Of a stretch of DNA of 64,000 nt, positions 10,176 to 46,034 are shown one piece after another (the first letter of the stretch is position 1; each line of letters opens with the position of its first letter). The notes beneath the pieces were generated by a model, which saw nothing but the letters and a program-made list of their open reading frames with translations, ran no database searches and was not told the DNA's origin. The stretch is from Antedon bifida (taxonomy: Eukaryota > Echinodermata > Crinoidea > Comatulida > Antedonidae): NCBI GenBank assembly GCA_963402885.1, contig OY727095.1:11537001-11601000 (forward strand), read 5' to 3'. The position numbers were made by a program, and so were the translations under genes.

Positions 10176-11396
10176 ATGGAAACACTTAATAAAAATTTGT
10201 TGTCCGTTATTATATTTGGATTTTGTTTAAGCTTTTCAGCTGGTGAAACATTCATCAGTGGAGAAATTTCAGAAGATGTAGAGTTTGTATCTTCTGATAG
10301 TCCTGTGTTTGTGACAGATGACCTGTATGTACAGAGCAATGCTACTGTAACCATTCAAGCAGGAGTGCAGATGTTCTTTGCAGAAGGAACAGGCATCTTT
10401 GTTAATGGAACTTTGATTAGCAATGGAACAGACGACAATCATGTTGTGTTGACCAGTTATGGAAATTCAACATTTTTGAAAGACGAATGGCATCTCAAAT
10501 GGTCACACGTAAGGCTGGTGAACGGGGGTAATGAACGCCAGGGTCATGTGTTAGTGTATACAGCTGGTAGATGGGGCAAAGTGTGTGCAAATCGTTATGC
10601 TCGTACAAATGCTGCTTTAGTAGTATGCCGTCAACTTGGATATGAAAGTGGGTCCTACAATGGGTTCGGTTCAGGGCCAGAACCAATCAATCTTTATGAG
10701 GTTTACTGTAATTCCAACGAGAAATCTATCTTTGATTGTTTCCGCAGTGAAAGCTATTGTGATTGTAAGTTAATGAATTTATTTTTTTAAATATTTTTAT
10801 TATAGACATTTTTAACATAAATAAATAAATACAAATAAACGCTTTAATGTTTTCCTTTCGTAGGGTATTTAGGGGTCGTGTGTTCAACAACAATAAGTTC
10901 CCCGCACAACTTGACATTCTCCAATACCTCGTACTGGGCTGGTATAAGTTGGCTTAAAAGCGATGCAGATCAAGACAAACGCAGCTTCCTAAGATATACA
11001 GATATATCATTGGCTGGAGCAAACGCAAACGGCGAAGCTGGTAATCCCGCCATTTATTCACATTCTAGACGCTTTCCATATTTATCCAATGTCAATATTA
11101 CTGATTGTGTTGGGTCAGGAATATGTTTCTCTGGCGTCGTCTCAGATATTGACATTAATGAGGTTGTTGTTAAAGGCAATCGCGGTTATGGAATGGAAAT
11201 GTCTACTTTAGGATCAATTTCAATACAGAATTCAAGATTTGAGGATAACGAATTTGATGGACTTGCAATTTTTGATGTTGATCATGGTACTCCTAATTAT
11301 GACATACTGTGTAATGATAATGTTACATATATTGCTTCATTCGAAACAGGATACTATACAGATAATGGTAACAGCTATTCTCAATCTTGTCGACAG
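10176..11396 (+). CDS. Copy A exons 1-2: signal peptide, first beta module, SRCR 1, start of beta-helix
   Basis: Residues 1-23 form a hydrophobic signal peptide ending near SFSAG. Residues ~24-105 form a module (SPVFVTDDLYVQSNATVTIQ, then GVQMFFAEGTGIFVNGTL) that recurs before each SRCR domain. SRCR 1 spans residues ~112-203 (VRLVNGG, GRWGKVCAN, VVCRQLGY, then LGVVC). Intron 1 cuts between SYCD and WYLGVVC, and the joined codon restores the final SRCR half. Exon 2 continues into right-handed beta-helix-type repeats such as NSRFEDNEFDGLAIF. The protein is extracellular; SRCR domains usually bind proteins or glycans. Confidence 0.85.
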
Positions 11397-14300
11397 GTAG
11401 GCCTATTTTTTTTAAATAAATATTTTATCGTGATAACTTGCAACAAAGCCAACGGAAATAACCTGTTTAATTAGCTAGTTTTTGCGCTCCTGGTCAAAAT
11501 TATAGTGTTCATATAATTATAGTGATCCTATATTATACTATTTTTTCTTGTATATTATTATTGATATTTATTTTAACCAAATAAATGAATTAAAATGTAT
11601 TAATTAATAAAACAAAACAAATGTTTATTGTGCACGATAATATAGGGTAATAACTCTGTGCGGATCACGACTTTGTTCACGAATTATTCTTTTGTATGTG
11701 GAAGGTGGGTGAGAGATATCCTGAATTTTTCAATTAGTCGGAAATAATGCCTAATAGAAAAAATAATGATTTTGTAAATGTCAGTTGTTTTATGCAGACC
11801 AAGGATACTTGCTAAAAGTGAAAGTCCTCCAATACAACTGGTACCATAGTTACTATAGTTACGTGATCCTCTATAATGGTAATGACACCTCAACCGCTGT
11901 TGGCAAAAGGTTTACAAAACAAGACGAGGTAATAATGATCACGAACAATGTGATGCTTATTGAATATCGATGCGATTACTACTACTACTGGAGAAACGAT
12001 TTAAACTTAGTGATTTGGAGTGAGCGTAAGTATATTACAAAATATTCTTACTTCTTCAATATACTTCTTACTGGTAATTGTTTTGTAATAACATTTAACC
12101 ATGCAAATGTGTTTGTTCTAATTATGCTATATTATGTGAGGTACTGTACGTATCATGTCGCGCCCATTAAAGAAAAGTATGTTTATTATAATGGTTGTAT
12201 AAATAATTATCATAAACCAAAATAGTTTTCTTCAGATTTTTAAATTAACTACTTTGTTTCATAACATTAAATGTATAAATTGAGTCGGCCATGTTTCCAA
12301 ATTAACAATGTCCATTACAGTGCATTTTTGAATTTCAATTGATTTTGATATGAGAACTTATGTGGAAAATAAACTAAACTAAACTATAAGTATAACGGTA
12401 GTAAAATGTCAAATTTTGAGTTTTTTGTTGTTATTTCAAGATTATTATTTGTTATTTCAGCAATACAAGGGTCTCATGTAATCAAAAATTCAGACTTTGT
12501 TGGCAACAATGGGAATGGACTGACAGTGCATCCAACGTACATGCCGGAATTACGTGTGAACAACGTACAAATGATGTTTAATAATGGGAATGGATTTCAA
12601 ACATACGCCAGGATTGATGAACTAACTCTCGAATTAAGTGATTTTATTGCAAACTCTTTAAATGGAATTAGCATTTATGAAGCTCAGAACATTGTTATTA
12701 ATGCATCATATGTTTCAGAAAATAATATGAATGGGTTGATTTCGAGAAGAGGTGATCTGAACATAATCAATAGTGTGTTTGACGGGAACTCCGATTCTGG
12801 GCTGTTTGTCTACGATAGTAACAGCAATACTTTGCAGGTTGAAAATAACTCATTCTCTTATAATAACGGATGTGGAATCGTTATAACTGGTGCATATTCA
12901 AACTCGTACATCTATAAAAATTCAGTTGAATACAATACGAACGGTGCAATTAAGTTTGGAGCTGGCATAAGCCCACGTTTATACGATATCATCATCTCGG
13001 GAAATAATATATCGTTTAACACAGGAGGTTTCCTTGTACATGTAGATGTATATCAAGTATATCATGAAAATATGATAAAAATAACTGATAACGTTTTTAG
13101 AAACAATACATGTGAGCGAGTCCTTTCTCTTGATGTATCATACAACTACAACTACTATACTATAGTTGTTGGGAAAAACTTCATAACTAACAATCAGCCA
13201 CGATTGAGATTTCCAAACTCTGTGTGGCCGTCATCTGTTTTGTTCTTACAATACTCAAAAGTATCAATGAAGAGCAACACTCTTGTTAATCCTGATTTCA
13301 TGTATGAAGTTGTTGCTGCTGGTCAAGAAGAACTATCAACAACGGTCATTAACGCTAGCCTGTCTTGGTGGGGATCTGATAACTGTTCTGTCATCAAGTC
13401 TCGTATCATTGATGGCGAAACACGACCGTCGTACCCAAAGCTTTTAATATCGCCTTATCGTGTCGTCAATGACACCTCTGAACTTGCAAATCAAGAATGT
13501 AGTCTAATTGGAGTTTTTCAGTTCGGTCAAACGATAGGTGGCAGTATATACAGTCATGTGACATTATCTTCTGACGGTAGTCCGTACGTTGTCAGTAACG
13601 ACATTTTAATACACTCAGATGGTGTGCTGGTAATTGAACCTGGTGTAACCTTATTGTTTGACTACTATACTGGAATATTAGTTCGTGGAAGACTTTTAGC
13701 CAACGGTAACCACACAGATATGATCAGAATGGCGCCATTTTATAAAAATATGTCTACTCCTATTCGATTATCTGATGGAAAAAATCAATGGGAAGGAGTC
13801 TTAGAGGTGTTAAAAGATGGAAACTGGGGCTCTGTCTGTTATTATTCTCATTCTTATTATTATTATGACGTTGCTAGTGTTGCGCGTATAGCGTGTCAGC
13901 AACTTGGATACACCGGTTATCTTGATTATTACACTGTCACATCCACCAGAATGACCGTCTTAGATTATTTTGAATGCAATGAAGACACTCATACAAATAT
14001 CTTAGACTGTGCTTTCAACATTCAACTGTATGTTTGTCCGTCATATCGTAAGCTTTATTTAGTATGTAATCCTGGAAAGTGGAGTGGTATCAAGTACACG
14101 CTTTCTAGTAAGCAGAGTTCGCTGGAATTTGCTTACATTAGTCAAACTGGTGGTAATCTTGAGAAAATGAATGTGTATTCCAGTGCTGCTATTAAAGTTG
14201 ACTTTAATCATCATCATTTTGCTAATCTTAACCTTCATAATGTCCACAGAGGCTTTACACTCTACATAGATAACCCATTCATCGATAAAGATCCAACTAC

Positions 14301-17300
14301 CAATACTGATATCATCTGTGCTGCTCCCGGATACGGTATTACAGTTTATTCCCTTTCCTATCACTACTATCAGGGATCTATTAACTGCAGTGGAGGTATT
14401 TACCTGTCGACACTGCCGTCGGATGATTTCAATGCTATCAAGCATTACACCGATCAACAAAATGTTCTTAGTTTTGCGGAAGCTGACCAATCGGTATTCG
14501 TTGAAGACATTCTCTATCTGGATGTAATATATTCAGGTTACTACCTTTACGTCACACATTCCCATAACTTTACCGTGCAGGATGGTCATACAATTGCAAT
14601 TTTTGTCTACAATGATTACTTTTCATATAATGGTTATTTGTCTTTCACCGATCCTTCAAGCGGAAAGACACTACTCTCGTTGGATTCTTCATCATCTAGG
14701 CGGCAACAACAATGGATTCAAACGACCTCAAATGAACTCACTGTTACCTTTTCGTCAAATTACTATTATTATTACACTTCTAATAAAGTTGGAATCGTTA
14801 TTCTGTCTTTAAAAGGTACGTAATTTCACATTTAGCACATTTAATTTTAAATTAATTTTCAGTTTAAATGATAAATAGGCCTACCTGTTTCTTCAACTTA
14901 TGTTTTATGTTCTTGAAAAAAATATATTGCTTGATTGGCAAAAGAGAATCGAGTTTTCACGTGCAGGAATATTTATCTACGATATAATATTATGTGAGTA
15001 AAAGTACATATAACATTATTATTTCTGTTTTCATACACAGACCCGGTTAAAAACATAACGAACAGCATTGTGTTGGATTCCATCAAATACGAAAGTAGTG
15101 GTTCGTACGCAATAGAAATGCAATCCGGATCAAAATCGACATACTTAAAAGTTTTGAACTGTACACTATTTGATAACACGTATGGATACGACATTGTGTA
15201 TTTAAATAATGGGGGTCGCGTTCTGTTTGAAGGATGTAACTTGTCTTCGATTAATAACTATCGTCCTGATGGCGTTAGAATTCGTGGTACATTTGAAGGA
15301 ATCACATTTTCTAACTGTGAATTTAAAAATATTTACAGAGGTATTGACCTTTACAATAGCAATATACTACCACTTAAAATCATGGATTGTTCATTTTTAA
15401 CGGTCAGTTATGCCATATACATTTATGGAAGCCAACATTCATCGAACATCGAAGTGTATAAATCAAGATTCGAAGATTTTTATAATGGATTGAGAACCAC
15501 ATCCTTTGATAATATTTTCATCGATGAATGTGACTTTCAAGATGGAACTTATGGTGTGTACGTTGATACATCGTTTGGTTATCAAAGTAATAATCACTCG
15601 ATAATCTTGCAAAATATTAATTTCCAATCGGTACACCGATCAGTTTATGCGGACATTGATATTGATGCATATCAACCGTCCGAATGGGTTTATCTAAGTT
15701 TAAAGAAATGTATTGTTGAAGATAGCGATCGCTTTCTGGAAACATATATATTTACGGAGACAATGAATATTGAAATGGATATAAAAAACAATATGATAAT
15801 GCACGGTAGAGATGTTATCTCAATAACGATAAATAACCAAATTGACAATAGCTACATTGTTAACATTGCGAATAATACAATTATGAACAACACTGCTGAT
15901 AACGCTATTGTTTCAATTGGACAACACTACCCTGCATTCATGTCATCTTCAACAGGCTTACAATTTAATTTCAGGGACAACATTTTACAACATAATTTAG
16001 CAAACCACATTATAAATGATCTTACATGTGCCTTGGAACTTGGTGTTCATACAGCATCCTTATCTGGAAATGTGTTTGATAACGTTGGAATCGATGTGGA
16101 GATCTGTAGTGCGCATGTCTTTACTGACCCTAATCATTATATTGATGCACGGTTTAACCAATGGGGAAACGTTGAAGAAGATAAAGTACGCCACAGAGTT
16201 TTTGACAATGAAGATTGGAATAACCTTGTGTACATTATTACGGATGATGAGAATACTGTAACTGATGAGTTGAGTAAATGTAGTTCGTCTAACATAGGTG
16301 GACGAATTAATGGCACATGTCACCTGACATTGCTAAATAGTCCTTATATGATCCAATCTGACATCACAGTTTTACCAAACGCAGAGTTAATAATAGATCC
16401 GGGTGTAAAATTGTTTTTTAAAGAAGATAATGGAATTACTATTCTTGGAAGGTTATCAGCAGTAGGTAATCCTAACGAAGAAATAACTTTTGATTTAACA
16501 GAAGATTTTGGTTCAGTAGATAGTGATAAGATACGTTTGGTTGAAGGTAATAGTCGAACCGAAGGACGTCTTCAAATATATGTGAATGGTGAATGGAAAA
16601 ATGTTTTTAACAGATATTTTGGATACAGTGAAGGCCAGGTTGCTTGTCGACAACTTGGTTTTACTTATGAAGGTTATCGTGGCATTGCACGCACTACAAA
16701 TTCAGAACCTACCTGGCAATATTATTTATATTGCTATGGATATGAGTTAAGTTTATTTCACTGTAGAAGCTACACCTACTACAATTATCATTCCAATGTA
16801 TGGTTGACCTGTAAGAGCTCACATTGGGGAAATATTCAATTGTACACCGATTCAAACTCTGAACGGTCTACCATTAAACATGTTAACATATTAAATACCG
16901 GTCGGCTACATGGTGTGGATGGTGTACCTTCAATATATGCGTTTGGACCTGTAATTCCGCTCACAAAAGACATCTATTTTGAGAATTGTACCGGACAGGC
17001 ACTTGTCATTGATAGTACGACAGAAATTGAACTAGAGAGAATTACCGTAAAGCACTGTTGGTCAGGTTTTGCATCACGAATTTATTCAGAAGTCAACATT
17101 TTGGAGAGCTCGTTTGACCACATTGATTATTCTGGCCTATTAATGACTACGAGAATAGCCAGTTTTTTTCCTTCACAGTCGTTCTTTCATTCCAGATGTG
17201 GTGGACATCATCTGGTTAATCCGGGAGACCAGTTAATTCTTTCTGACAGTATATGCGGAGAAAAGGACTGCATCAGTGTTATTGAATGTGTACACAATTG

Positions 17301-20300
17301 TACAATTATTATGGCTTTTCACCCCGTTAATTATTATTATTCTCGCATTTATATTTATGACGGAACTTCCATTTATTCTAATCAAATTGGATATGTAGAC
17401 CGATATTCTTCGAACAGCAACAAGATTACGTATATTCCTACTTTGAGCGCGGTAACTATTAAGATAGACTATAATTATTATTATCGGAGATATTATTTCT
17501 GTAAAAATACAAATAATTATCAACCACTTGAATTTCACATCTCTGTTTATGAAAAAGGTAAGTCATTTGATTATATAATGTACAGAATATGGAGTTTGTA
17601 GTTTCTAGTTATGTGTGTAATAGCAGTATTTTATATATATCGAACTATTTTCAATTTATTAAGCTCAATTAATGGAATAAATTTAGGCCTACATATTTCT
17701 GACGACGCATCGTAAGAAATTGCAATACTTTAGGTACTACCAGCAATGAAATTCATACGTGTCAAACGTCAATAGTTTATATATTTCCGCAATGTATAAT
17801 TTTGTTGCGCACATTTTCAAAAATCAAATTAATTATTATAAGTTCTGAATTGAAATGTATTGAGTGATATGTTTGGCTATTTATTTTGTTGTATCTTAAT
17901 ATTGTAGAACATCTGAAGTCGTCCATAACTGTAGCCGATTCGACTATCAAGAATGTTGTTGGATCTTTTGTTTCAATCGTGGATAATGAAATTGAAGATA
18001 AAATTCCTGTTGATGTCAGCATATCAAGATGCTATTTTGAAAAGTGTTCTCGAACAAACCACAGTGTTATCGGCATTGGTCGCAAAGATGGTAACTGTTC
18101 AATAACTGAAAACTTTTTCAATGAAAACTACGGTACAGTAAACATTAGTCAAGGAGGAACCGATGCTTCAACAATAATTGTTGCACGGAACTATTTTTTA
18201 TCAACAAAACAGAGTAACATATTGTATATACAGTCTCCAGCTGACTCAATAAGAATACAGGTGTTTGATAACCACTTTATTCAAAACATACCATCAGCTA
18301 ACAACGATGTAGTCACCATTCAAGGAGGCAACGCTAGTATTAATAACAACTTATTTTATTATAACCATGGACGACATTTGATATTCATTGGAGGAGAAAC
18401 TGCCAATGGAAACCGACTCATCTATGGTAACATTATGATTTATAACACTGGCCAACGCTCTGATGAAACATTCACAATATTATTAGATGGTACCAATACT
18501 GGCATTAATGGAAATTATATAGTAAATGCTGGAAATGAATTTGAAATAGCTCTTACTTCTCGGGTAACGGAGACGGTTGATGCTACAAATAACTATTGGG
18601 GAGTTCGTTCCTTAGAAGAGGTCAGAGGTCGAGTGCGTGATGGAAAGAGTATTATTGGTCACGCAGATATCGAACAGGAACCTTTTCTTACTGAACCATC
18701 AGATATCGAATTCTTTAGTTGTAAGTTTAAACATTTTACTACCCTATATTAGCAGAGAAACGAATATTTAGGAAGAAGAGATATTTTGTTTTATTACTAT
18801 AATTTAATAAAGGTTTATTATTAGCAAATGTAGTGAAGAAAAAATAAAAGGATTAAAAGATAACACAGTTTTGAGATACTACTGTTTATATGAGGGAAGG
18901 AAATCTAGAAAGAAAAGATCATGTTAAATGTTAAATCATTAATTAATTAAGTAATCAATAATTGTTTTTAAAGCATCATGTCAGCCAGGCTATACCTTAG
19001 AAGGAAGTCAGTGTTTCAGTTACAAACCAGCTGCCGTCGACTACAATACAGCGAAGTCAATTTGCTTTGTATGTATACATTTATTATTACTATTAATTAA
19101 AGTAATTAACCAAAGAGAGCACACTTTGTGTATACAAACAGTGTTCTCGTCTTCCACTAGAGACATTTTCCTTTTTACCATTATATCTATACTTTAGTTT
19201 ACGTTCCCATTCATATTCCCACTTTAAACAAATCAAGTACAGAATATCATTTTGTTATTTCGGAATTTTTTTTTATAAACCTTATGTTCTTGTACTAAAT
19301 CATAATTTGTATATCTATATTAATTTTTTGTAATAATTCACAGTCGGAAAGAAACGCAGTGTACCGGCTAGTTTGCAATAATTGTATTGGTCCTACCAAG
19401 AACTCGGATGTCAACGAATTAAAGAAGTATTTAAGAATGAAAAACGGTGGATATGTTGACACAAGTCGTATTTGGATAGTAGATCAGGATTTATTTAAAA
19501 AGGTAACAATACATTGGGCCATAACAGTCTTACGTCATTTCTGTTGCAACGTGGATAGTCGGGAAACGGCCATCATGAAGAAAATATCATTTTGTTATTT
19601 GCTCCATGAGTCACTAATTTGAGGTATTCTTATGGAGTTCCCACTTGCCGCCAATTGTTTATTATTATGCTAAGTGTTTCTCTGATAAAAAAATGACGTG
19701 AGCTCACATGTTTTGCTTATAGAACAATACACATTGTGTTGATTAATCTATTAGGTAGAAGGTTTATCATTACAATTTATCATATGTTCGACAAATTACC
19801 ACAATAAAGGTCATCTTTTATTGCCTTCAGCACTACTCACACAGGTTATTCATGGTTGGCTAAAATCATGATCATTTTGTAATGAGTAAATTATTACATT
19901 TGTCTAGTGTCGATATTTGGAAGTACATCATATCAGTGGTAAATACAGTACAGGAACAGCTGATTGTGGCCAGCGATACCCAACTGTCTGCGAACGTCAA
20001 GCAGGTAAGATAACCCAAGAAAGAGTGATTACTCTTCCATAGAGTAATGTTGTATTACGTAAGTATAATCTGTATATAATAGCAATTATTCAGCAAAATT
20101 GTGTTTGTGTTTAAATCTTTCTCTCCTTCTGTAAATTTAGTGAATCGATGTCCTAATCAATGTATGGGTAACGGGCTATGTGGAAGGGGTTATTGTTTCT
20201 GTAACACAGGCTGGACAGGTAAAGATTGTTCTCAGTTTACATGTTCAGGTGGTTGCGGAAACTATGGCACTTGTCAGGGACCAAATGTATGCCGATGTAG

Positions 20301-23300: not shown

Positions 23301-26300
23301 CAACAAATTGATATATGTGTATCAATGGTGTTTTTTTAATAAAGGTTATAGGATTATACATCGGTATGTAAATAATATCAATACTTAACTATGTTGCTAT
23401 TTTTAAATTCAGAATGGAAACATTTCCTATGAAATCAAGCCAGACTTTAAATTCAATCCATCTCTGAGACTAACTTTTCAAAATGATGTAGTAAAATTCA
23501 ATCAACTTGATGTGATATATGAGGGTATTGTAGAGGCGGGTATTCATATGAAAATCAAGGCGGGAGATCGGTAAGTGTAATTTTACCGAAAATAACAAAA
23601 TAATCACGATACAATTGGAAACATTGCAAGCATGCAAAGCAAGACTTACAGTACAATTTACTAATAATAACATACAGACATTATTACAACAATGTTTCCT
23701 CTGTCGCCCTTTGGAACGGTTTATACCAATCTCTACTGTGCAGAAAGTAGACGGAAAAGGTACAATCTCTTAAAAAAATACTTTTTAAGAAATAAAAACT
23801 ACTTCTAGTATAATAGTTTAATTTGATTTTATTTATAGATTTGATTACGTTACTGAAAATCAATTTGTTGATAAAGGAAGAATTGGTTCTTATTACGTTG
23901 CGTTGGGAAATGTAGCTATTCCTCTATCTGTTGATATCCAGGTCAAGTATTCCGTATCTGTTGACCTGCCTGTAAGCATATTGATTATGACATGATGAAA
24001 TGATAATTTATATCAATCATAGAGGTTCATTATACTAAGTATCAATCAATCTATTTTAGAAAAAAAAAGGTATCGTTATGCCTATATTGGATTGTTATAG
24101 TTTATAATAGTCCAGTACACTTAGACATCATTAGTATTTAATATTTTATTTCAAATTATTGATAAAGAAATACACAAATCATTACCGTATTGTACTATTT
24201 GTCTTTAAGGCTTCGTTGGAAACCATTTTTGGTGTTACCTCTAGTGGATATATAAGCGTTGGTTCAGGTCTCAGACCACAGAAGGATAGATTGGTTGTAC
24301 TGCCTCCAACGGTTTGTATCATTATTTAATCACTTAGATAATCAAGTTAAATTAAATGATAGTTCTATATGTTACATTTCTTTTGTGATATTGAAGGTGT
24401 ATGAAGTTTAAGTTGTCATGAGTTGGCAAATATTGTTCCTTCCGGGTTCTGTAGAGACCCTATTATTTGCTTTATAATGTAAATAAAACGCACCATTCAC
24501 TTTGTACTATTTATAGGTAGCTAATGCAAATACAAGTTCAACAAGAGCGGTGTATTCAACACAACTTGAAGAAAAGAACAACACAATATCCGTGAATGCC
24601 ACATTGATACCAACAATAGTGTTTACATTTCCATCTGAACCTGTGGCACCATTCTGCACTACTAAATCTTCTCTGCCTGATTGGCTGGCAAATTTTGGTA
24701 GGAAAATTGTAGCGTCTAAATATAATTGAAATACTTGTATTTAATATCGTTTATTAAATATTTTTTTTGTATACTGAAATGTGTTATACACAGAAGCTTT
24801 GTTTTCTATAATTTTACTTGTTTAGTTTAGTATATCGCTCTTTATTTATTTATTAATGCTATAGCAATCAGTTCGCACATTTTATCATGCTAATGTAGTG
24901 TATTGAAGTTTCATCTTACATTATTGATCCTTTATTTAGTTGGAGTAAATGAAACGAGATGTAATTCAGAAGAGGAAACATCATCTGCTTTTCAATTTTC
25001 TACTACATTCGATATTCAGACAAACTATACAGTTTTGATGTGTGATGATGTTTGTAATAAAGATGATAGTCTACCTTGTGATATACCAAACGCTGACATA
25101 TTATATGGTGGTCTTACAAACATGAATATGCTCACAACATATAACCAAGTCGACCTAACACAAGTCGCATACAGATCAAAAACGAATGATTTAACGGTTA
25201 ACACAAGGTAATATTTTCATAACTTACTGATTCTTTACCATCCTCCTGCGTATTAATTATGATTTGTGGCCAGCTGATCCCACTTTCCAACTAATATCAC
25301 TTCCTAACTGATATCACTTTACAACTATGGACTCGGTTTAAAATGTACTTATTTTCTTTAACAGAGAGTGCAGAGCTCAACCAATACCTAGTGTTACCAC
25401 AGAGACTACAACTGGCATGCCTAATTTTTGTCCTAACGGCTACACAGTCTCTCAAACCAATGCTGTAATGAAGTGCCCATGTACATGTCTTGATACTACT
25501 CTGAGGAATATGTCTCCAGATGGATCATGCCCGGTTTGTTCATTCTACATTTTTTCACCAAACTAAACACTCACTATATATACACGTTTATCAATGTTAT
25601 ACTAAACAATATCTAATAAAATGACGTGTAGTGGTCAATTTCAAGCAACCACTAGTGAAAAAAGAATTTGAACATTTGAGTTACAAATAAAGTTACAGTA
25701 CCATATCATTTCACCAGAGTACATCTTCTAGATTACATATATAAATGTTGAAAGAATTTGAATTGGTTAGCGTGTTGTAGAACATTCGGAACTTCGGAAT
25801 ACGAACGGTGTATTTGAATATAATATATTTAACATTAAGCTATTTTTTCCGTTAGTGTTCATGTCAATGCGCTGATGGGTCATATGACATCATAGCACCA
25901 GATGGAAGCTGTCCTTGTGAATGCAAATGTTCTGACTGTCAAACTTACACTATCGGTTCAAACGGTTGTCCGTGTCCGCTGATGAATGACATCTGTCCGC
26001 CATGTTTGATTGGTGAAGTTCAAGTTATCAACAATTGTCTTTGTCAATGTGTACCAGATGACCAATGTGGAATTCCACCAATATGTGTGACTGGACGCCA
26101 AGGTGAACACTGTGATAGACCCGACTGTCGACCATGTCAAGGTAACAACATTTAACAAAGGCGATAATCAATTCAATCTAATCAAAACTCTAATTAATCA
26201 GTATTGACTAAAATACTATTTCATGATAAGTATTGATACAATGCACATTATTTACTTTGTTCAGGTTGCTCTGGGAACGGTGTCTGTACTTCGGTGCCAA

Positions 26301-29300
26301 ACAGCTGTCAATCGCGATGTCAGTGTAATCGAGCTTGGATCGGAGAATGCTGTGACATTAGAAGACCAGCTAGAACTGGAGGAGATCCTCATCTTGTGAC
26401 ATTAGACGGTAATAACTTTATTTAACAAATTTTTTCCTTTTCTTTTTTATCTTGTTATTTTATCTTCATTTTTTCTTTAAATTGTTTGTTCCTTTTCATT
26501 TCTTTTGTCTTTTTTTCCCTTTTTTTCTATTTTTTTAAAATAATGAATGGAATTGTCATTAAATTATTATTTACGAGATTAAATTTTGTTTTATTAAGTA
26601 ATCACAACAAAGACCATGTACAATTTGAGTTCATATTGTGTTCTCCCAGAATATAATAAATAAGTTATTAAAATAGATTTTTTAAATTGAAGCAAACATC
26701 GAGATATTAAGTCTTTCTTAAGTACACTCCATATAACTATCTATTCCTTGTAGGTGTGGAGTACGATTACTATGGAAATGGCGAGTTCTGGTTATGCAGA
26801 AGCATTGGTAATGATTTTGGTATACAAGCAAGATTTTATGAAAGCCACAGATCTTCATTAACGGGAGGAATTTCCATGAAATTGAAAGAAGATGTTTTGA
26901 CAATTACCACTCCAATGATAGCGGATTATGAAACATTGCCAATTCTAAGGTAGGTACACATGAAATTATAATATTGTACAAACCTAAAGAATATGAGAAA
27001 AAAACATTTTCCAATTTTAAGCCTTTAAACAAAGTGTTTAACTTTGATTTTTCAAACATTTCTAGACTAAATGGTGAATTACTGGATATAAGCACTGAGC
27101 AGAAAATCCAACTGGCAAATTCAACAGTACTATTAGATGTTCAGCTGAGAAACAGCAGTAACTCGTCAAGTCCCATAATGATTTTGGCATTCGAATACCA
27201 ATCAGGTGATTTTTTTGTATTTGTTTAAATTATTGATTTTCTATTTTTGTTGTTGCCAAAAACATGTTAACCTCTATTTCTAAAGTGGAATATTGCAGTG
27301 TTTATTGGACAGAAAACATATCCAGAAACGACTTTCATACTTTTGAAACGAATAAATTATTTACATTAAAAAAACCCCACACTTTTACTGATTTAAAAAT
27401 AGTCTTATTTTTATTTATCAATACGGCTTTAAAGTTTTAACATTGTCAATCTTTATTGACATTGCCTTATTAATTATCTAGTGTTTTGTTGTCTAACTAT
27501 CAGTTATTTATTTTTAAGGTGTGTCAGTAGGTATCGAAGTACAGTTTAGTGAGTCGATCGAGAGACTATACTTCAACTTATTAGTCACACCTACACTCAG
27601 CTTTATTGGTAAAACAGAAAGCCTCTGTGGTCTTATGGATGATGACACGGACAACGATTTTATTGGTTCGGATGGCGCCCTCTACCATCTCAATAATGTC
27701 ACTGAATTTGTTGAAACATGTAAGACAGATTACATATTATTGATTCATTGAATATTAAATAATTGACTCCCACATTTGGAGAAAACTGCAGCAATATAAA
27801 AACAACAAAAGCCGTAACTTCAGAAAAACATAAACATTTTTGTGAGAATAGTATTTTTTCAGTTTCATAGTCAACATTTCTTCTTTTTCCGAAACTAGGG
27901 AAAATTTCAAGCTCTAATTCTAATGGTGGACTGCATGGTTCTTGGTCGTGGAATTCGTCCAATTTTCATTCATTAGATGAGTTGGATAGTTCTTACACGA
28001 GGATATATGAACCGATCTACAGTTCAGATGACTTAGATCAAGATATTGTGGAGGTAATAAAGATTAATAGATTAAATTATTTAGTAATAATTGTATGCAT
28101 ATCATTTTCTTTTAAATATTGATAACATGTTATTTCCTCAAAAACCTGTGGATGTGAGAGCAATGCTATTTTTTTAATGTGGAGTTTCTATAATTCGACA
28201 GGTTATTAGATTTTTAACTTTCAATCTAGTAATCTTTTTCTTTCTTTTCTTTTATTCAATTTTTCACACTTCAAAAATAATACAAGTTATGTGAAACATT
28301 AAGGTAATCAAACTAATTTAAACAAAATATATAGATATACTTGTACAACAAAGAAATGTGAAAGGAGGTCAAATAAGTATAATACTTTAAGCTTGACCCC
28401 CTAACAAGACTGCAGGTTACGGTACATGACAAAAAAACAGCACATGAGGTAATGATATTTGCTGTACAAAATGCCTAGTAAAAATTAGAAAATAACAATA
28501 TCAGTAATAGTTGTGATTAAATATAATATATAAAAAATAGAATAACAATAAATTAACATTATTAAAAATAATCATAACACCTTATTCATCATATGCCTGG
28601 ATTAGAGATTGCTTATATGTAATTTTAAAACTAAAAGGTGAAGGTTTCTTTATCAGTGAATGTGAAAGACTTTCCCACAGTTTAAGTCCAGTATAAAGTA
28701 TTGAATGACGTCTAATGTGCGAGTCGCAGTTTTTAACAGTGTATACATTAGTATTGGAAAAACGGGTAAAATGTGTATGAGTATCAGAAGGTTTAGTAAA
28801 GAGTGAACATATGTGGGTCGGAAGTAGATTATTTGTAAGTCGGTACATGAATAGTGCAGTTTGAAGTTTATTGACATCAACACTTTAATTCGATATATGA
28901 GATTTATTTTTTCAATATGCATAGTGTTTAGTCGTTTAATTTGCTCATCACGGATACATTCAAAACATTGTTACTTTTTTACTTAATAAACAGATGGCAA
29001 CGACTGCATGCCTTAAAACACTACAAAATACAATAGAAAATGCTGTTCTTTTTCAATCTTGTGTCTACGACGTCGCTGTAACAAATGATATGTCATTCTC
29101 AAATCAACAGTCACTGCAAATAGGTAAGTGACTACTAGCGTCATTTTCTCATGAAGTTTATGAAACGCCAAACGGAATTCATTTTTATCGAATTTTATTT
29201 ATACAAAGTAAAATGTACACGACTATTAAAGTATTGTGCAATATTTGTGCATTTCAGGATGTCCACAGCAGTGTTCAGGTCGTGGAGTATGCATCGATAG

Positions 29301-32300
29301 TGTATGCCAATGTCTACCGGGATGGTCTGGAAATAGTTGTAACAATGGTAAACTTCTCTGCACTTGGATTTTATCAATTTAATTGTTTTTAAACCCGAAT
29401 TTAATAATCCATGTTAACAATTATGCAATAATAATAATTGAATTTAATTTCTTTAGGTACCTGCACCTCGAATTGTGTTAATGGAGATTGCATATCTGGG
29501 TTTTGTCGATGTAACGTTGGCTGGGAAGGCGATACATGTGAAGACAAAGGTACATATTATTATATATTATTTTAGGAACACAATATTAACTTTATGTTAA
29601 AGGTATTGTTAATTATTAAAGTTTTAACTTGTATATTTATATATATACTAATTGCAGGGTAAAATGCCAGTAATATTTTATTTAGTTCAATGAACTTGAT
29701 GTTATTATATGCTTGTGTTTTAAGTAGTAATTAGACATTGAGTATTAAACATATATTTTTAGCCACTTGCTATAGTGTAAATAACTGTACAGACGAGCAA
29801 CACGGTGAATGCCTTTCAACGGATGTATGTTTATGCAAGAAAGGGTTTACAGGTAACGATGGTATTCTGTAATTTCTAGACATAAATTCTATTTGTTGAG
29901 AGTATTGAACTCTTTTTACGCTAGTCAAGCAACCACTTCTCTGCGCATGTGCAAATGAATAGAATTAGCCATTCAATCTGAGACAACCTTTTCACACTTA
30001 TTAGAAATAATGTAGGATAACGAGTGTATGATTGTACCTATCCAAAGGCAAATTACTAAAAATATGACAATGTATCAGTTGGTGGATCTCAATGGAGATA
30101 CAAAATAAAATAAGCAAAAAGCTAAATCAAAACGATAAAGTAAAACAGCCAGAAAAATGAGCAGAGCTTTCGGGCAACACTAGCCCTTGCTCAGTTGACA
30201 CTTGGACAAAGTAGATATAAAGCAGACAAGTACTTAACTTAACTTAATATATATAATATTAATAACTGTGATTTCAGGTGATGATTGTAGTATCGTTCCA
30301 ACGTGTCATGCAGTTTCTGATTGCTCAAGTAACGGAATCTGTGTTAACTTTGATGTATGTGAATGTCAGGAACAATGGAAATCTTCAGCTTGTGACGTGT
30401 TATCTTGTCACAACCTTGACGGATGCTCAGGTAAAATCTGAAGTGAATTAACAATTTAGTCTAGAACAGTTGATGTGAAAGAATATTTGTTATGGACTTG
30501 AAAATATTCCCTCCATTCAACTCATAAGCATTCATTATTTTGGATATCTTTATTTTATGAAGCAAATGTATATAATATGAAATTCAGTTATCATAAATAG
30601 CGTAAATTGTTCAGATAGACAGTATAATTTTCAATAGTATACAGTATACGAAATTAACAACATTTGAAATGTAAAAATGTTAAGAACATAAAAAAAATAG
30701 TAAAAAACAAAACCAATATTGTCCAAGAAAATATTGTTTCTTTTTTGATTAACATAACATAAGAAACTGCTAATTGCCTTTATTTATGACAGGTAATGGC
30801 ATATGCGTCAGTATCGACGTTTGTATGTGTAATAGTGGATGGACTGGCGAATCTTGTGCTTTGCCCGATTGTTCTGAAATGAACTATTGTAGTGATCAGG
30901 GAGAATGTACAGGACCGAACCAATGTAGTTGTTATGTGGGGTACCAAGGAGATAACTGCACTGAATCAATTGACTGCATTGAATTGAATAATTGCAATGG
31001 GAGTGGAGTTTGTATTGAAGACGCCTCTTTGGATAATGGAACATTTTCTTGCGAGTAAGTTCAGCAACTGTAGTTTGTAGAAACTAAGGGAAAGGTACGA
31101 GTGCATGATGGGTGGTGGAAGTGGTTGGGTTTCTCAATGCTGTTGGCTAAACTGTGTACTCTCCTCTTTCTCCAATCAAATATCTGGAAACACCCCACGT
31201 TTATATTTGGCGTATTTAGATCTTTAGAACACTTCGGCCACAATCTACTGTATATTGGTCCTCTCAAGATAATAAGTTATTTATAGCGTATGATGATGAT
31301 CACAGTGTCTTACTTATACTACAGCTCTTTCACATAAACAGATGTAGTCCCTTTGAAAACAGACAAGAGGTTTTTTTTTATAGCTATATTAATGTATTGG
31401 TCTTTTTTCTAGGTGTTTTAGTGGATATTCAGGTGTGAATTGCTCTGTGTTTTCATGTGAACAGTTAAATAATTGTTATGACCATGGGACATGTATTGAA
31501 TCCAACGTTTGTCAGTGTGATGTTGGTTATACTGGACAGAATTGCTCACTTCCTTCTTGTGAAAATCTTGCGTTTTGTACTGGTAAGTGCCGTCTAAAAA
31601 CAATTTTATTATACATTTTTGATGAGATAAAAACATATAACAACCTAATTTCTTTTTTCCATTCATCTTTCCATTTCACTTTATTTATTGAAGGTAATGG
31701 AGCATGTGTATCATATGACAAATGTGAGTGCTACGCTTCCTGGTCAGGGGATAAATGTGACATTGCATTTTGTAGTGATGACTGCAATGGACGTGGAGAT
31801 TGCGTTGATGAAGAAACATGTCAATGTTATATAGGTTATGAAGGTGATAGATGCGAACTTGTTCAACAAGAAAATCTAAACCAACCTGTATTTGATAACG
31901 ATGCATTGAATGTCACATTTTACGAAAATCTACCGATTGGAACCTTTTTGATCACTGTAAAAGCACGGGATAACGACACTGGTCAGAATGGGATGGTATC
32001 ATATCGATTACTACAGTCAGAATATTCAAACCTTTTTCTAATCGATCAACAAAATGGAAATTTGATTACTGCTTGGGTATTTGATTTTGAAACACCATAC
32101 TCGGATATCTCGCTTACAGTAATTGCTGAAGATAATGGTTTCCCACCGATGAGTGCATATGCTATGGTTAACCTAACGCTACTGGATCAAAATGATAACT
32201 GTCCAGTATTCTTAGGAGATTATCCAGATATAACTATTCATCTTAATACCACCAATGCAACAGTCATTAGTAATATTTCAGTTGTAGATGAAGATAGTGA

Positions 32301-34711
32301 TGAAAATGGCAATGTTAAATTATCAATGAAGGTCGAAGGTGATATGTCAGGTTCAATATTCGAGTTATTAGACACTGGTGAAATATTGGTAGCTGGTGAT
32401 CTTCAGTCAGGACGGTACGTAATCAAATTAGTTGCATCAGACAATGCCCTTCAGCCGTGTAAAACAAATCAAGAATTTTCTGTTTACGTTCCATTTGTTC
32501 AAAATTACGATTTAACAACGCCGGGCTTAACAACTGAACAACGTGAAATTACAACTCTTCGAGAAACCACAACTAAAGATGTTACCACAGCTCCAGACAT
32601 AACAACTGAACAGCGTAAAACAACTCCTTTAGAAACTACAGTTAAAGATGTTACCACAGCTTCAGACATAACAACTGAACAACGTGAAATTACAACTCCA
32701 GGAACTACAGTTAAAGATGTTATTACAACTCCAGACTTGACAACTGAACAGCGTAAAACAACTCCTCGAGAAACTACAGTTGTTACCACAACTCCCGACA
32801 TAACAACTGAACAACGTGTAATTACAACTCAAGGAACTACAGTTAAAGATGTTACAACTCCAGACATAACAACTGAACAACGCGTAGTTACAACTCAAGG
32901 AACTACAGTTAAAGATGTTACCACAAGTCAAGGAACTACAGTTAAAGATATTACCACCCCGCACTTAACAACAGCTGATACTACTTCTCCAAATCAAGTG
33001 ACAACTGTTCAACAAGGATCTACCCCCAAAGAAGTCACTACAACCATTATCGACAAAACTGATACTACATCACCAAATCCAACAACTGAAGCCGATAACG
33101 TAGTTACAACTCCACAAGTTTTGACATCAGAAGACAGTCGTACTACTGCTCAAGATCTGAGAACCGAAAAAGAAGGTAAATTATTGAATATATTACTAAT
33201 TAAGTTTGATAAACCAATAGTTTATTCACTCAAATATATATATCTAACACCATTTAGAATATTATTAAAAACGTTGATTGTTGTTGTTAAAATGTGCAGT
33301 AGATCCTGTGATTTTGTGTGTTTGTTTTACAGGAGATTGTACAACAGATGCAGAATGCAATAATGGCGCAAGTTGCTATATTGGTGTATGCGCTTGTCTT
33401 TGTCCGTATAGTGGCACAACGTGTAATGAAGGTATTTACCATTAGTTCGTCATAATCACAAACATAAATTATAATTTTTTATCAACGATTATGAAACAAA
33501 TCATCTTCCTTATTATGATTATCATCTATAGATTAGGTAATATATTATATTATTACAATGTCATCAATAATCAGTAGCAGCAACATTACAGATTATCAAT
33601 ATCTTTATACTACTACAAGTAAATACCTATTATTAATACATTATGTACTTTTAGTTGGACAGTGTTTTGAGACATCTATCATGGTTACTAATCTTCAGTC
33701 CGTATTTGGTGATAATGAGGCCGAGTTTTCACCTGAATTAGACGATCCTTCAACTCAGTTGTTTCAAGATGTATACAAAGTGGCTAAAGATACTGTAAGC
33801 ATTTCTCACAACCACATATAATATGCTCTTCCACGAGGTATTAAGTACCATTACTACTGTGACATTTAAAAAGACAGTCCTATGTTGCATTGACATACAT
33901 GCGACATTCATTTTTTCAAATAAGCTTTCCCAATGAGTTATATATGATACTGCTAATATTATGAACCTTTGGACACTACAAATTTCTCAATTACCACTCT
34001 TTTTAGAGTTTGGTTTAAAATAAAATAAAAAGGTTACTTATATATACGATTGGTATTATGCGAAGATTGATGTTGATGTATGTTCTGATGAATCATATCC
34101 AAATACCTTTAATTAAAAATACCTCTCACTAAATGATTTATATCGTGTCTTCTTTTTTCTTAAGATGGCAACTATTGCTGCAAATTCTGATATTGTGAAA
34201 GAGATCAAAATCGTGAGATTTAGACAAGGAAGTCTACTTATGGACATGAGCATAGTAGCTGTAACTGGACAATCTGAACAACAGATTAAGGAGGAGTTCA
34301 CACGGGCGCTGATGGCTACAGATAGTAAAGATATTACTTTTGATTTAGACACCATACAGGTTAAAGAGAGTAAGTGTAAAGAAACAGATTTAGATTAGTT
34401 TGGAAATATCACTTTTAATTGCTGCTAATAATAGTATGGAAATGAGTGTGTAGGCTTATGTGTGAGAGATACTTACTAATTGTTTATTTATTACAGTAAA
34501 TGAAGAATCCGATGTATGGATTATTGTCTTTATTTTGGCATCCATCGCATTCTTGGGTATCTTCGTAATATGCATAGCTGTTTGTACTATGCTTATTTTG
34601 AAAACACAAGCAAAGAAAAGACATTTGAGAGATATGGCCGTATCAAGACAAGGTTTCATCTACAGAGATGAACGAATGAATTGGGGACAAGGTGGAAAAA
34701 GATATAAATAA
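10176..34711 (+). CDS. Giant multidomain transmembrane protein, copy A: Bark beetle/Anakonda-like triple repeat plus CTLD, EGF, PSI, VWD, cadherin, mucin stalk, SEA and TM
   Basis: The 41 exons are 10176-10764, 10864-11396, 11785-12025, 12461-14815, 15041-17557, 17908-18720, 18974-19068, 19344-19502, 19908-20004, 20141-20313, 20522-20719, 20942-21043, 21380-21662, 22082-22267, 22409-22652, 22742-22910, 23047-23196, 23413-23570, 23839-23971, 24210-24311, 24517-24697, 24940-25207, 25365-25533, 25856-26141, 26265-26408, 26754-26949, 27066-27205, 27519-27719, 27899-28053, 28994-29123, 29258-29347, 29457-29549, 29763-29852, 30278-30430, 30793-31054, 31413-31582, 31694-33175, 33333-33431, 33655-33794, 34165-34369, 34497-34711. 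All junctions are GT-AG with agreeing phase, and the sum is 4721 codons plus stop. Copy B independently supports each site through exon 34. The start ATG has A at -3 and G at +4 and opens a signal peptide. The SRCR/beta-helix repeats followed by a C-type lectin fold recall Bark beetle/Anakonda, which organises tricellular junctions. The adhesive or junctional role here is inference. Confidence 0.88.
11785..12025 (+). CDS. Copy A exon 3: CUB-like beta domain of repeat 1
   Basis: The 80-residue exon reads LFYADQGYLLKVKVLQYNW, then YVILYNGNDTSTAVGKRF and ITNNVMLIEYRC, a pattern like the second half of a CUB domain. The acceptor is tcag at 11784; the nearer tgcag at 11797 would shift the frame. 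Copy B uses a tag at the equivalent place, which confirms the choice. A four-tyrosine run (YYYY) follows the Cys. Related sequence ends the second and third repeats. Confidence 0.75.
12461..14815 (+). CDS. Copy A exon 4: beta-helix, second beta module, SRCR 2, beta-helix, CUB-like domain
   Basis: This single 2355-base exon (residues 455-1239) holds most of repeats 1 and 2. It starts with parallel beta-helix repeats rich in N-G-N and N-S patterns (NGNGLTVHPTYMPEL, NSFSYNNGCGIVITG). The second module starts near residue 813 (TIGGSIYSHV, VIEPGVTLLFDYYTGILVRG). SRCR 2 is at ~887-992 (IRLSDGKNQWEGVLEVLKDG, IACQQLGYTGY, LDYFECNE). A beta-helix and a CUB-like end (LSFTDPSSGKTLLSLD, then a five-tyrosine run) follow. 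Phase 1 at both ends makes it a symmetric module. Confidence 0.82.
15041..17557 (+). CDS. Copy A exon 5: beta-helix, third beta module, SRCR 3, beta-helix, CUB-like domain
   Basis: This symmetric phase-1 exon of 2517 bases covers residues 1240-2078. Beta-helix repeats (FEGCNLSSINNY, FSNCEFKNIYRGIDLYN) are followed by the third beta module near residue 1657 (NIGGRINGTCHL, LIIDPGVKLFFKEDNGITIL). SRCR 3 is at ~1736-1830 (IRLVEGNSRTEGRLQIYVNG, VACRQLGFTYEG, YELSLFHC). Beta-helix sequence and a CUB-like end with CISVIECVHNCTIIMAF follow. Copy B carries its transposon inside the homologous exon. Confidence 0.82.
17908..18720 (+). CDS. Copy A exon 6: final parallel beta-helix segment
   Basis: Residues 2079-2349 contain coils with recurring Asn and short beta strands (CYFEKCSRTNHSVIGIG, CSITENFFNENYGTVN, NHFIQNIPSANNDVVTIQGG). 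The exon ends with NNYWGV and EVRGRVRDG before the lectin fold. Both boundaries are phase 1. It is nearly identical in copy B. Confidence 0.8.
18974..20004 (+). CDS. Copy A exons 7-9: C-type lectin-like domain
   Basis: Exons 18974-19068, 19344-19502 and 19908-20004 encode ~117 residues. They open with CQPGYTLEGSQCFSYKP, which has the CTLD N-terminal Cys pair and Tyr, and close with DCGQRYPTVCERQ, which matches the usual C-terminal (F/V)CE. No EPN/QPD plus WND calcium-sugar motif is seen, so it is probably a non-sugar-binding CTLD. A CTLD after three SRCR/beta-helix repeats is also the order in Bark beetle. Confidence 0.78.
20141..21043 (+). CDS. Copy A exons 10-12: two EGF-like repeats, PSI domain and a second Cys-rich PSI-like piece
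   Basis: Exon 20141-20313 encodes two EGF-like units (CPNQCMGNGLCGRGYCFCNT, then GGCGNYGTCQGPNVCRCRSG). Exon 20522-20719 encodes a plexin/semaphorin/integrin (PSI) type motif (CIRFKDCKSCAKVEGCGWCD, then RTCLPG). Exon 20942-21043 adds CERTHCNF and GSCQSCLDLKQCF, resembling another partial PSI. All are extracellular disulfide-rich modules. Confidence 0.77.
21380..25207 (+). CDS. Copy A exons 13-22: large extracellular region without a recognised domain
   Basis: Ten small exons (residues ~2625-3248) encode mostly beta-rich, Cys-poor sequence: NKRLDHIDAFDVLVSSQGQG, GRLDEVFAYANFQDLL, EKATLGCSGGEYDQEG, FNPSLRLTFQNDVVKF, SVGTIIVLDSIGNFIESVVD. Alternating hydrophobic residues suggest several Ig- or FN3-like sandwiches, but I cannot name a family. 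N-glycosylation sequons are frequent. The region lies between the PSI/EGF block and the Cys-rich/VWD block, and it is highly conserved in copy B. Confidence 0.7.
25365..26141 (+). CDS. Copy A exons 23-24: Thr linker and dense Cys-rich repeats
   Basis: A short Thr-rich linker (PSVTTETTTGMP) precedes repeated Cys motifs: CPCTCLDTTLRNMSPDGSCP, CSCQCADGSYDIIAPDGSCP, CECKCSDCQTYTIGSNGCPC. The recurring P-D-G-S-C-P-C core, about every 25 residues, indicates an internal repeat. It is an extracellular disulfide-rich stalk before the VWD domain; the family is uncertain. Confidence 0.68.
26265..27719 (+). CDS. Copy A exons 25-28: EGF-like unit and von Willebrand type D (VWD) domain
   Basis: Exon 25 encodes CSGNGVCTSVPNSCQSRCQC and then GGDPHLVTLDG, the classic VWD start. 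Exons 26-28 continue with YDYYGNGEFWLC and end with SLCGLMDDDTDNDFIGSDG, matching the VWD LCG(x)nND(D/F) motif. VWD domains often mediate multimerisation or adhesion. Intron 25 (26409-26753) holds a T-rich tract. Confidence 0.83.
27899..29123 (+). CDS. Copy A exons 29-30: post-VWD segment
   Basis: The two exons encode a Ser/Asn-rich stretch (NSNGGLHGSWSWNSSNFHSL) and then TACLKTLQNTIENAVLFQSC with VYDVAVTND. The latter resembles the segment after VWD in VWD/EGF and mucin-4-like proteins, where a Cys-containing helix precedes EGF repeats. The 940-base intron between them contains an old LINE fragment. Confidence 0.7.
28560..28900 (-). mobile_element. 5'-truncated LINE fragment (reverse-transcriptase C-terminal end) in copy A intron 29
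   Basis: The minus-strand reading at 28848-28582 gives 88 residues with MYRLTNNLLPTHICSLF, HTHFTRFSNTNVY, SHIRRHSILYTGLKLWESLS and KITYKQSLI. This is the typical C-terminal tail of non-LTR retrotransposon ORF2 of the CR1/jockey type. The same fragment sits at the matching place in copy B (62032-62298), so it was inserted before the gene duplicated. Confidence 0.7.
29258..31582 (+). CDS. Copy A exons 31-36: EGF-like repeat array
   Basis: Six exons (29258-29347, 29457-29549, 29763-29852, 30278-30430, 30793-31054, 31413-31582) encode about nine EGF-like units: CPQQCSGRGVCIDSVCQC, CTSNCVNGDCISGFCRC, CSSNGICVNFDVCECQ, CNGSGVCIEDASL, NCYDHGTCIESNVCQCDVG. Exons 31-34 are all phase 1-1, so any of them could be skipped in frame. 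Confidence 0.82.
31694..33175 (+). CDS. Copy A exon 37: EGFs, two cadherin repeats and Thr-rich mucin-like stalk
   Basis: This 1482-base exon covers residues 4009-4502. After two EGF-like units (CYASWSGDKC, RGDCVDEETCQCYIGYEGDR) come two cadherin repeats (NQPVFDNDALNVTFYEN, KARDNDTGQNGMVSYRLL, ...LLDQNDNCPVF as the calcium linker, then VVDEDSDENGNVKL). From residue ~4278 a tandem Thr-rich repeat (TTEQRKTTP, ETTVKDVTT, DITTEQR) runs for about 220 residues and should be heavily O-glycosylated. Confidence 0.82.
32511..33170 (+). repeat. Coding minisatellite for the Thr-rich mucin-like stalk
   Basis: Degenerate tandem units of roughly 70-75 bases carry acaactgaacaacgt and gaaactacagttaaagatgt and encode alternating TTEQR and TTVKDVTT blocks. 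Five to seven units are recognisable, with later copies shortened. The frame is kept throughout. Copy number is likely to vary between alleles, as in mucin genes. Confidence 0.7.
33333..34711 (+). CDS. Copy A exons 38-41: last EGF, SEA-like domain, transmembrane helix, short tail
   Basis: Exon 38 encodes an EGF-like unit (CTTDAECNNGASCYIGVCAC). Exons 39-40 encode ~115 residues with the SEA pattern (LFQDVYKVAKDT, EIKIVRFRQGSLLMDMSIV); the G-S within RQGSLLM sits where SEA domains self-cleave. Exon 41 encodes one membrane helix at residues ~4657-4685 (VWIIVFILASIAFLGIFVIC), a basic stop-transfer cluster KTQAKKRH, and a ~35-residue tail ending GGKRYK. Topology is type I. Confidence 0.82.
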
Positions 34712-44875: not shown

Positions 44876-46034
44876 GCCACTATGTAATTTCGTGTCATTT
44901 TTTTGTTAAAAGCAAAATTCCAGCTGATTTAGTGTCTTTAGGATGTAAAGTAATAAAAAAAATATGTTGCCATTTTTTTAAAAAAGCTTAAGGGTGTCAA
45001 ATCCAAGATGGCCGCCAATACGTAAAATATCCAATAAATGTACCATATTGGACAAAGTAACACCCATTATGAATAATATTTTAAGTTAAAATTAATGCTA
45101 TATGGGTTCTCTGCTATATAAAAATTATTATAAACCTATATTCATTAGTATTTTGACATTTTGAATTTCAAAATGGCCGCCATTTTAAAAAAATGGATTA
45201 CATTTCTTATTAAAACATATGCAAGTTATGACGTTGATTGAAATCACATAAAATGATAGGCCTATGACAACAACACGGTTATTAACACAAAATGGTGGCC
45301 ATTTTGAATTTCAAAATGGCCGCCATTTTTTTAAAAAGGGTTAAATTTCTTATTAAAACGTGTGTAAGTTAAATTCAATTAGATTGAAATGACACAAAAT
45401 GATATGCCTACAACAACATGGTGATTAACTAACTCTGCCAAATGAAATATTTCTAATCAGTGCGCTGTCTTGAATGCATATATTATGCATGCAATATAGT
45501 AAGTTGACCTTCCTTCGTTCTCTACTATTGTATCCATCAAACTTCAACAGACTGATCTGTGATCCCAACAGCTTGTTCAGAAACAAATTGGCAAAAGTAC
45601 TGCAATCAATACCTCATTTCACCCCCAAATGCTCATACGTTCTTATATACAGTACTGTACCAGCTGACTATGTGATAGAATCTCTATTGGAGTCCTTTTT
45701 TACTTTGATAAGTTTGTCACCTGTATTCACCGTCATATATATTTTTTGCCAATATTCATCCTTTTCTTAGGATCCCATATAGTTTGCCTTCTACAAAACT
45801 TTTACCAATGCCTCAAACATTTTCTGTCCAATGTCATCATGCCATGGCCAACAAACACCTCTGTGGGATTTGCAGCATTCTTCATTAATCAAGATATCAT
45901 CTCTCTTTAAATGTTGGCTTTCAAACTCATCAACTAGATTTGCCAGCTCTGATGAAATTATTAATTTGTGTTATTCCAATGATACCATGCTCAATGACCT
46001 TGATCAATTGATGTAAATCCAGCAATTCCCTTTG

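Follow-up and report, generated by a model that had tools for sequence, protein, structure and literature searches.

The window, a stretch of 64,000 nucleotides (C8:11537001-11601000 in a 315.6-Mb assembly of 27 contigs that was also the genome searched), carries on its + strand a 41-exon gene that runs from an ATG at 10176 to a stop codon ending at 34711, both exact, and reads without an internal stop into a predicted type I membrane protein of 4721 amino acids. The gene model was obtained by exon chaining trained on long open exons followed by manual curation, and its exons have counterparts in the further copies described below (copies 2, 3 and C14). A previous sequence-only reading of the same DNA had proposed one continuous reading of 41 exons and 4721 residues, and we obtained the same count and length. 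Our first model comprised 42 exons and 4744 amino acids and contained a guessed bridging exon at 23678-23746, which was removed because the exon search did not find it in copy 3 and found only a poor fragment of it in copy 2. From the amino terminus, the predicted protein (hereafter the window protein) consists of a signal peptide, three repeats of the order beta-module, SRCR, beta-helix and CUB-like domain, a degenerate C-type-lectin-like domain (CTLD), EGF modules, a PSI domain, an unmatched region of 624 residues, Cys-rich repeats, a VWD domain, further EGF modules, two cadherin repeats, a Thr-rich stretch, an EGF module, a SEA domain, one transmembrane segment (TM) and a short tail, with the signal peptide, TM and tail recognized by inspection of the translation. 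A motif scan found 64 N-glycosylation sequons. The domains listed in the sequence-only reading were called by Pfam for the three SRCR domains, Beta_helix, the EGF modules, VWD and the two cadherins, while SEA and PSI scored below the cut-off.

The head begins with the signal peptide and the beta-module of repeat 1 (10176..10505), identified by inspection of the translation and by aligning the beta-modules of all three repeats with one another and with those of a relative on contig C15. SRCR 1 (10506..10890, end approximate; Pfam 5.7e-14) spans intron 1, and exons 2-3 (10864..12025) encode the first part of beta-helix 1, for which Pfam gave a Beta_helix score of 2.8e-4 over exons 1-3, below the cut-off, together with CUB-like domain 1, assigned through a weak match of a CUB profile to PDB. 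Exon 4 (12461..14815) contains the rest of beta-helix 1, beta-module 2, SRCR 2 (approximately 13777-14082; Pfam 1.5e-8), the start of beta-helix 2 and CUB-like domain 2, and gave a Pfam Beta_helix call of 2.3e-11. Exon 5 (15041..17557) contains the rest of beta-helix 2, beta-module 3, SRCR 3 (approximately 16528-16818; Pfam 1.7e-13), beta-helix 3 and CUB-like domain 3; Pfam did not call Beta_helix in this exon. An SRCR domain is called by Pfam in each of the three repeats (exons 1-2, 4 and 5). The last part of beta-helix 3 was assigned to exon 6 (17908..18720) from its place in the repeat and from the equal phases of exon 6 in the C15 gene. Within this gene, exon 5 resembles exon 1 (3.1e-15) as well as exon 4 (3.0e-14), and judged by these matches the three head repeats are homologous to one another. 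An AlphaFold model of exon 5 alone was of low confidence (mean pLDDT 44.7), with approximately the first 170 residues moderately confident, and a Foldseek search with this low-confidence model returned mostly beta-helix proteins as top matches at a best E value of 0.034, which is not significant (0 of 297 matches at E<=0.001). A model from four aligned segments of the window had a mean pLDDT of 35.7 and was set aside.

The CTLD is encoded by exons 7-9 (18974..20004). Neither this domain nor the CUB-like parts, both proposed in the sequence-only reading, were called by Pfam, and both were indicated weakly by profile searches against PDB. The CTLD profile matched C-type-lectin-like chains in 22 of 23 matches at E<=1 (best 0.0021), in agreement with a C-type-lectin-like domain after the third repeat. 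For the CUB-like parts, a profile of six segments had as its best 4 of 20 matches at E<=5 enteropeptidase heavy chains (8.1e-4 to 1.1e-3), and three further CUB chains appeared lower down among unrelated chains such as antibodies. The matched stretch of enteropeptidase is presumably its CUB domain. The EPN/QPD and WND motifs are those of sugar-binding lectins, and by eye the CTLD contains neither. Runs of three to five Tyr residues occur in the CUB-like domains and in SRCR 2, near 11977, 13855, 14758, 17329 and 17470 (residues 439, 920, 1221, 2003 and 2050).

Downstream from the CTLD, exon 10 into exon 11 encodes EGF-like modules (Pfam EGF_Teneurin 4e-7, two stretches), followed by the PSI domain in exon 11 (Pfam 1.1e-4, just below the cut-off) and a Cys-rich exon 12 (20141..21043 in all). 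Exons 13-22 (21380..25207) encode the 624-residue region, which had been described as an unrecognised region of about 620 residues and which indeed produced zero matches in Pfam or NCBIfam and only one chance-level match in PDB (0.83). A genome search with this region, in which 29 of 29 candidates were scored, gave 41 matches, all lying within the four copies of the gene; in both the Pfam scan and the genome search the query still contained the 23 residues of the removed exon. No internal repeat was found in the region by BLASTP at E<=10. It is followed by Cys-rich repeats in exons 23-25 (25365..26408), seen in the sequence while Pfam was silent, and by the VWD domain with a Cys-bearing segment after it, from the end of exon 25 to exon 30 (26375..29123, start approximate; Pfam VWD 1.9e-9, FCGBP in PDB 1e-11). 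Besides the copies, the VWD part matched the genome only over 42 residues on contig C10 (E 2.3e-4 to 6.3e-4). EGF-like modules occupy exons 31-36 and the start of exon 37 (29258..31878; Pfam EGF_Teneurin, nine stretches, 4.8e-45), and the two cadherin repeats follow at 31879..32514 (Pfam Cadherin, two stretches, 3.2e-25), the first ending in a DQNDNCP linker found by motif scan. A C-terminal profile searched against PDB matched cadherins and protocadherins among the 60 listed of 138 distinct sequences. The remaining parts are the Thr-rich stalk (32515..33159; 215 amino acids, 35% Thr by composition), an EGF-like module in exon 38 (33333..33431) recognized by alignment with exon 11 of the C15 gene, the SEA domain in exons 39-40 (33655..34369; Pfam 6.8e-5, below the cut-off), and the single TM with a cytoplasmic tail of approximately 36 residues in exon 41 (34497..34711).

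Genome searches together with tblastn showed that the gene described above (copy 1) is the first of three tandem copies on contig C8, and that a fourth, divergent copy is present on contig C14. The earlier reading of a single gene unit is supported, and this gene is one of several copies. Copy 2 occupies 39129..64000 on the + strand and passes the end of the window (to approximately C8:11605149), copy 3 lies at C8:11610891-11638595, and the C14 copy at C14:10748572-10784342. In the exon search, which covered the whole 41-exon gene, copy 3 and the C14 copy each contained counterparts of 41 of 41 exons, in order and stop-free between AG and GT, and 29 of the 41 C14 exons have exactly the length found in copy 1. 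Because the search in copies 2, 3 and C14 imposed the phases of copy 1, the phases found there are no independent evidence, and what counts is that the exons exist in the copies, in which order and at what length. Copy 2 has a counterpart of every exon, with only a partial exon 5 and the other exons open. An insertion of approximately 3.6 kb (44867..48505, edges approximate) breaks up exon 5 of this copy; the inserted element has inverted arms at 44886-45035 and 48347-48496 that are 74% complementary, and a stop in frame follows shortly after the insertion point near 44867. Copy 2 may have been lost recently or may give a truncated form. A fragment of a reverse-transcriptase-associated zinc-binding domain (Pfam zf-RVT 1.8e-9) lies within the span of copy 2 at 52176-52655 on the - strand.

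When copy 1 was compared with the C14 copy, dN/dS was between 0.14 and 0.37 over 12 of 12 gene segments. Because the ratio is this low in every segment, the head, the unmatched region, VWD, EGFs, cadherins and SEA/TM are by this measure all under purifying selection, and since the 41-exon reading recurs in the other copies at such ratios it is, on this evidence, more than chance.

A shorter relative was found on contig C15 by a genome search with exon 5 followed by exon chaining (C15:20794404-20809641, - strand; 14 exons, 3146 residues). The chaining was carried out without the phase template of the window gene but with parameters trained on that gene, and one of the 14 exons was chosen by hand to fit the phases of its neighbours while two long ones were assembled manually from pieces that had been split. 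The C15 protein comprises three repeats, a CTLD, EGF, a single cadherin called by Pfam, a linker, EGF, SEA (2.6e-4, below the Pfam cut-off) and TM, with approximately 100 further residues where a second cadherin would lie; Pfam called SRCR in repeats 1 and 3 and none in repeat 2. Identity between the two heads is only about 23%, and BLASTP against the 4744-residue form of the window protein gave 6e-59 and 3e-52 for the heads, 2.8e-16 for EGF-cadherin and 3.1e-6 for EGF-SEA. A search with the C15 beta-helix scored 18 candidates, from which 10 matches resulted; each of these fell in one of the five loci already known, and no further Bark-like gene was found this way.

Between the two genes, 13 of 13 comparable intron phases are equal: C15 exons 1-9 have the exit phases 1,0,1,1,1,1,0,0,1 of window exons 1-9, and C15 exons 10-13 have the exit phases 1,1,0,1 of window exons 37-40. 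Because the phases correspond in this way, the window gene is, in terms of exon structure, a gene of the C15 type plus a cassette of 27 exons (exons 10-36, 20141..31582), phase 1 in and phase 1 out and absent from C15. The C15 gene shares the triple-repeat head, CTLD, EGF, cadherin, EGF, SEA and TM, but has neither the 27-exon cassette nor the long Thr-rich stretch. The sequence-only reading had envisaged a much larger relative of Bark beetle whose stalk has mucin-like and calcium-adhesion parts; its VWD, EGF, cadherin, Thr-rich and SEA parts are there, but since the shorter C15 gene also has EGF, cadherin and SEA, what has been added is better described as a cassette of EGF-PSI-unknown-Cys-VWD-EGFs than as the entire stalk. 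It is possible either that the cassette was gained in the window family or that it was lost from the C15 gene.

The assembly also includes a mitochondrial contig (C27) of 15,844 bases, on which the frames, with gene names assigned by eye and ND3 tentatively, give the order COX1-COX2-ATP6-COX3-ND3-ND4-ND4L-ND5-ND6(opposite)-CYTB, with ND1 and ND2 on the other strand. Compared with the COX1 chain of PDB 7o37, 4 of 5 AAA codons of its COX1 stand at Asn, 5 of 5 AAG codons at Lys and 12 of 16 ATA codons at Ile, and the COX1 strand of the contig is 46% T. One study cited in PMC5856267 reports, by its title, that crinoids have a signature nucleotide bias and a unique nad4L rearrangement. The mitochondrial code and gene order fit an echinoderm, probably a crinoid (the feather stars and sea lilies).

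The protein that the head resembles is Bark beetle/Anakonda (Aka) of the fly, which has been counted among the proteins of tricellular septate junctions and contains SRCR and parallel beta-helix domains (PMC8006247). The Fig. 5 legend of PMC11698045 gives the composition of Aka as signal peptide, SRCR, CUB, beta-helix, CTLD and TM, and according to the same paper Aka mediates homophilic adhesion via its triple-repeat ectodomain, is required on three adjoining cells, and accumulates at vertices in dependence on the ectodomain and not on the cytoplasmic domain. The window protein likewise has a signal peptide, a triple-repeat head with SRCR, parallel beta-helix and putative CUB-like parts, a CTLD and a TM, but differs in its EGF, PSI, VWD, cadherin, Thr-rich and SEA parts, none of which is named in that legend (PMC11698045), and in having approximately 2200 residues between CTLD and TM. 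The likeness to fly Aka is one of domain set and order. This domain content and order, as had already been proposed, support the assignment of the window protein to the Bark/Anakonda kind, and this indicates that the triple-repeat head of a fly tricellular junction protein is present in an echinoderm.

Other known systems share single parts with the window protein. It has a VWD domain in common with mucin/FCGBP-type proteins, but here the domain forms part of the stalk below a Bark-like head, and NIDO and AMOP were absent from the Pfam scan. A catalogue of echinoderm cadherins uses as superfamily criterion at least two repeats, a TM and a short tail, all of which the window protein has, and the ten cadherins given in the catalogue are CDH23, CDH88C, CSTN1, DCHS2, Fat1, Fat4, GCDH, PCDH9, PCDH15 and UECDH, while the term SRCR occurs 0 times in its main text (PMC10734073). 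The catenin-binding tail of classical cadherins differs from what we found, since the tail here is about 36 residues long and the Pfam scan of the piece containing it showed no cadherin cytoplasmic domain. As the sequence-only reading had supposed, no described protein with the full domain order appears among the titles and abstract beginnings listed from open-licence literature. An echinoderm Bark-like protein is likewise absent from these.

With a probability of about 0.62, these comparisons point to the window protein being a long type I surface protein of the Bark/Anakonda kind, encoded by a single gene and serving adhesion or recognition in epithelia, possibly at junctions. Adhesion or recognition by the head in trans is favoured because the protein shares an Aka-kind head and a short tail, with a longer stalk between them. 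By analogy with fly Aka at three-cell contacts, the heads of neighbouring cells would meet in trans, and the stalk of VWD, EGF, cadherin and Thr-rich parts would set the reach; the cassette, sitting between the lectin-like domain and the EGF-cadherin-Thr-rich-EGF-SEA-TM stalk, could act as a longer spacer, and the SEA domain would anchor the protein and may be cleaved. We infer adhesion, trans contact and a junctional site from this analogy. The genome contains PLP/M6-family loci (four matches in two places on contig C10, best 2.2e-9), members of the family to which M6, the partner of Aka, belongs.

Between copies 1 and 3, intron identity is 95.8-100% in introns 27-38, 85-89% in introns 1-3 and 99.6% in intron 4, and dS is 0.16 in exons 1-4, 0.10-0.13 in the EGF/PSI, unmatched and Cys-rich parts and 0.02-0.03 from VWD to the cadherin exon, with zero changes in the CTLD. 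Within the head, dS is highest in SRCR3 (0.34), SRCR1 (0.34) and CUB1 (0.26), lies at 0.12 to 0.19 in SRCR2, beta-module 2, CUB2, CUB3 and the second part of beta-helix 1, and is lowest in the beta-helix 2 part of exon 5 (0.01) and in beta-module 3 (0.02). In windows of 120 bases, identity has a low point in all three copy pairs in SRCR3 near residue 1779 (0.72, 0.72 and 0.84) and in CUB1 near residue 357 (0.79, 0.77 and 0.81), while near residue 615 the low point differs among the pairs (0.75, 0.92 and 0.74). The divergence of the head thus comes in patches, which are most marked in the SRCR and CUB-like domains but also occur outside them; its simplest reading is gene conversion that spared patches of the head. 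Counts of nonsynonymous and synonymous changes, rounded and with sites treated as independent, gave an odds ratio of 1.44 (p 2.3e-6) for exons 1-5 against 6-41 between copy 1 and C14, and 1.57 (p 0.009) for exons 1-4 against 6-41 between copies 1 and 2.

Instead of a junction protein, the gene may encode a scavenger-receptor-like surface receptor of recognition or immunity. Its SRCR and CUB-like faces would then bind to microbes or to non-self, held out beyond the surface coat by the Thr-rich/VWD/SEA stalk. This alternative, which we consider unlikely although the strongest of the three weighed here, would accommodate the tandem expansion, the concentration of dS in SRCR3, SRCR1 and CUB1, and the evolution of the head in copies 1 and 3, which is faster than that of the stalk (odds ratio 2.5 for exons 1-5 compared with exons 6-41, p 5.5e-7, with the same treatment of counts), and SRCR proteins are opsonins in a starfish according to PMC13409769. 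On the other hand, 14 of the 15 head domains have a dN/dS below 1 in this pair of copies, the exception being beta-module 3 with a dN/dS of 2.34 but with only 1.0 synonymous change, and because of this the comparison does not demonstrate positive selection. Moreover, SRCR2 (dS 0.12) falls outside the group of most divergent domains and beta-module 2 (dS 0.19) falls within it, the domain order is that of the junction protein, and the C15 relative with the same head is unexpanded.

Somewhat less credible is that the gene is an ordinary Bark beetle orthologue with lineage-specific lengthening only and no new role. The architecture of the head and the purifying selection seen throughout against C14 agree with it, but the shorter C15 gene, whose head is of this kind too, is a likelier choice for the plain orthologue, and the window family has both the 27-exon addition and separate tandem copies. 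Least credible by far is the wrong joining of two adjacent genes, of which the first would be Bark-like and stop behind the CTLD and the second would comprise VWD, EGF, cadherin and SEA. One could cite for it that the cassette is without a counterpart in C15 and that the gene model comes from genomic sequence. Against it, all 41 exons recur collinearly both in copy 3 and in C14, which is divergent, and a fusion of the head to EGF-cadherin-SEA-TM is seen in the C15 gene as well. The comparison thus argues strongly that 10176..34711 is one gene and not two run together, and by eye the head alone would be without a membrane anchor and the second part without a signal peptide. A short separate transcript ending after the CTLD is possible.

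Returning to the favoured reading of a Bark/Anakonda-kind protein of adhesion or recognition, the presence of both forms in one genome makes the phase-1 cassette a clear example of how domains are gained or lost. A more speculative extension, to which we would give slightly less credence than to the plain orthologue, is that the cluster on C8 is a diversifying adhesion or recognition system in which gene conversion keeps the stalks uniform, whereas differences are maintained in patches of the head and chiefly in its SRCR and CUB-like domains. If this were true, neighbouring cells, or individuals, with different copies would differ in binding, and a junction protein would have been turned into a recognition set in an echinoderm. 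Tandem copies with patchy divergence of the head make such reuse of junction proteins for recognition testable.
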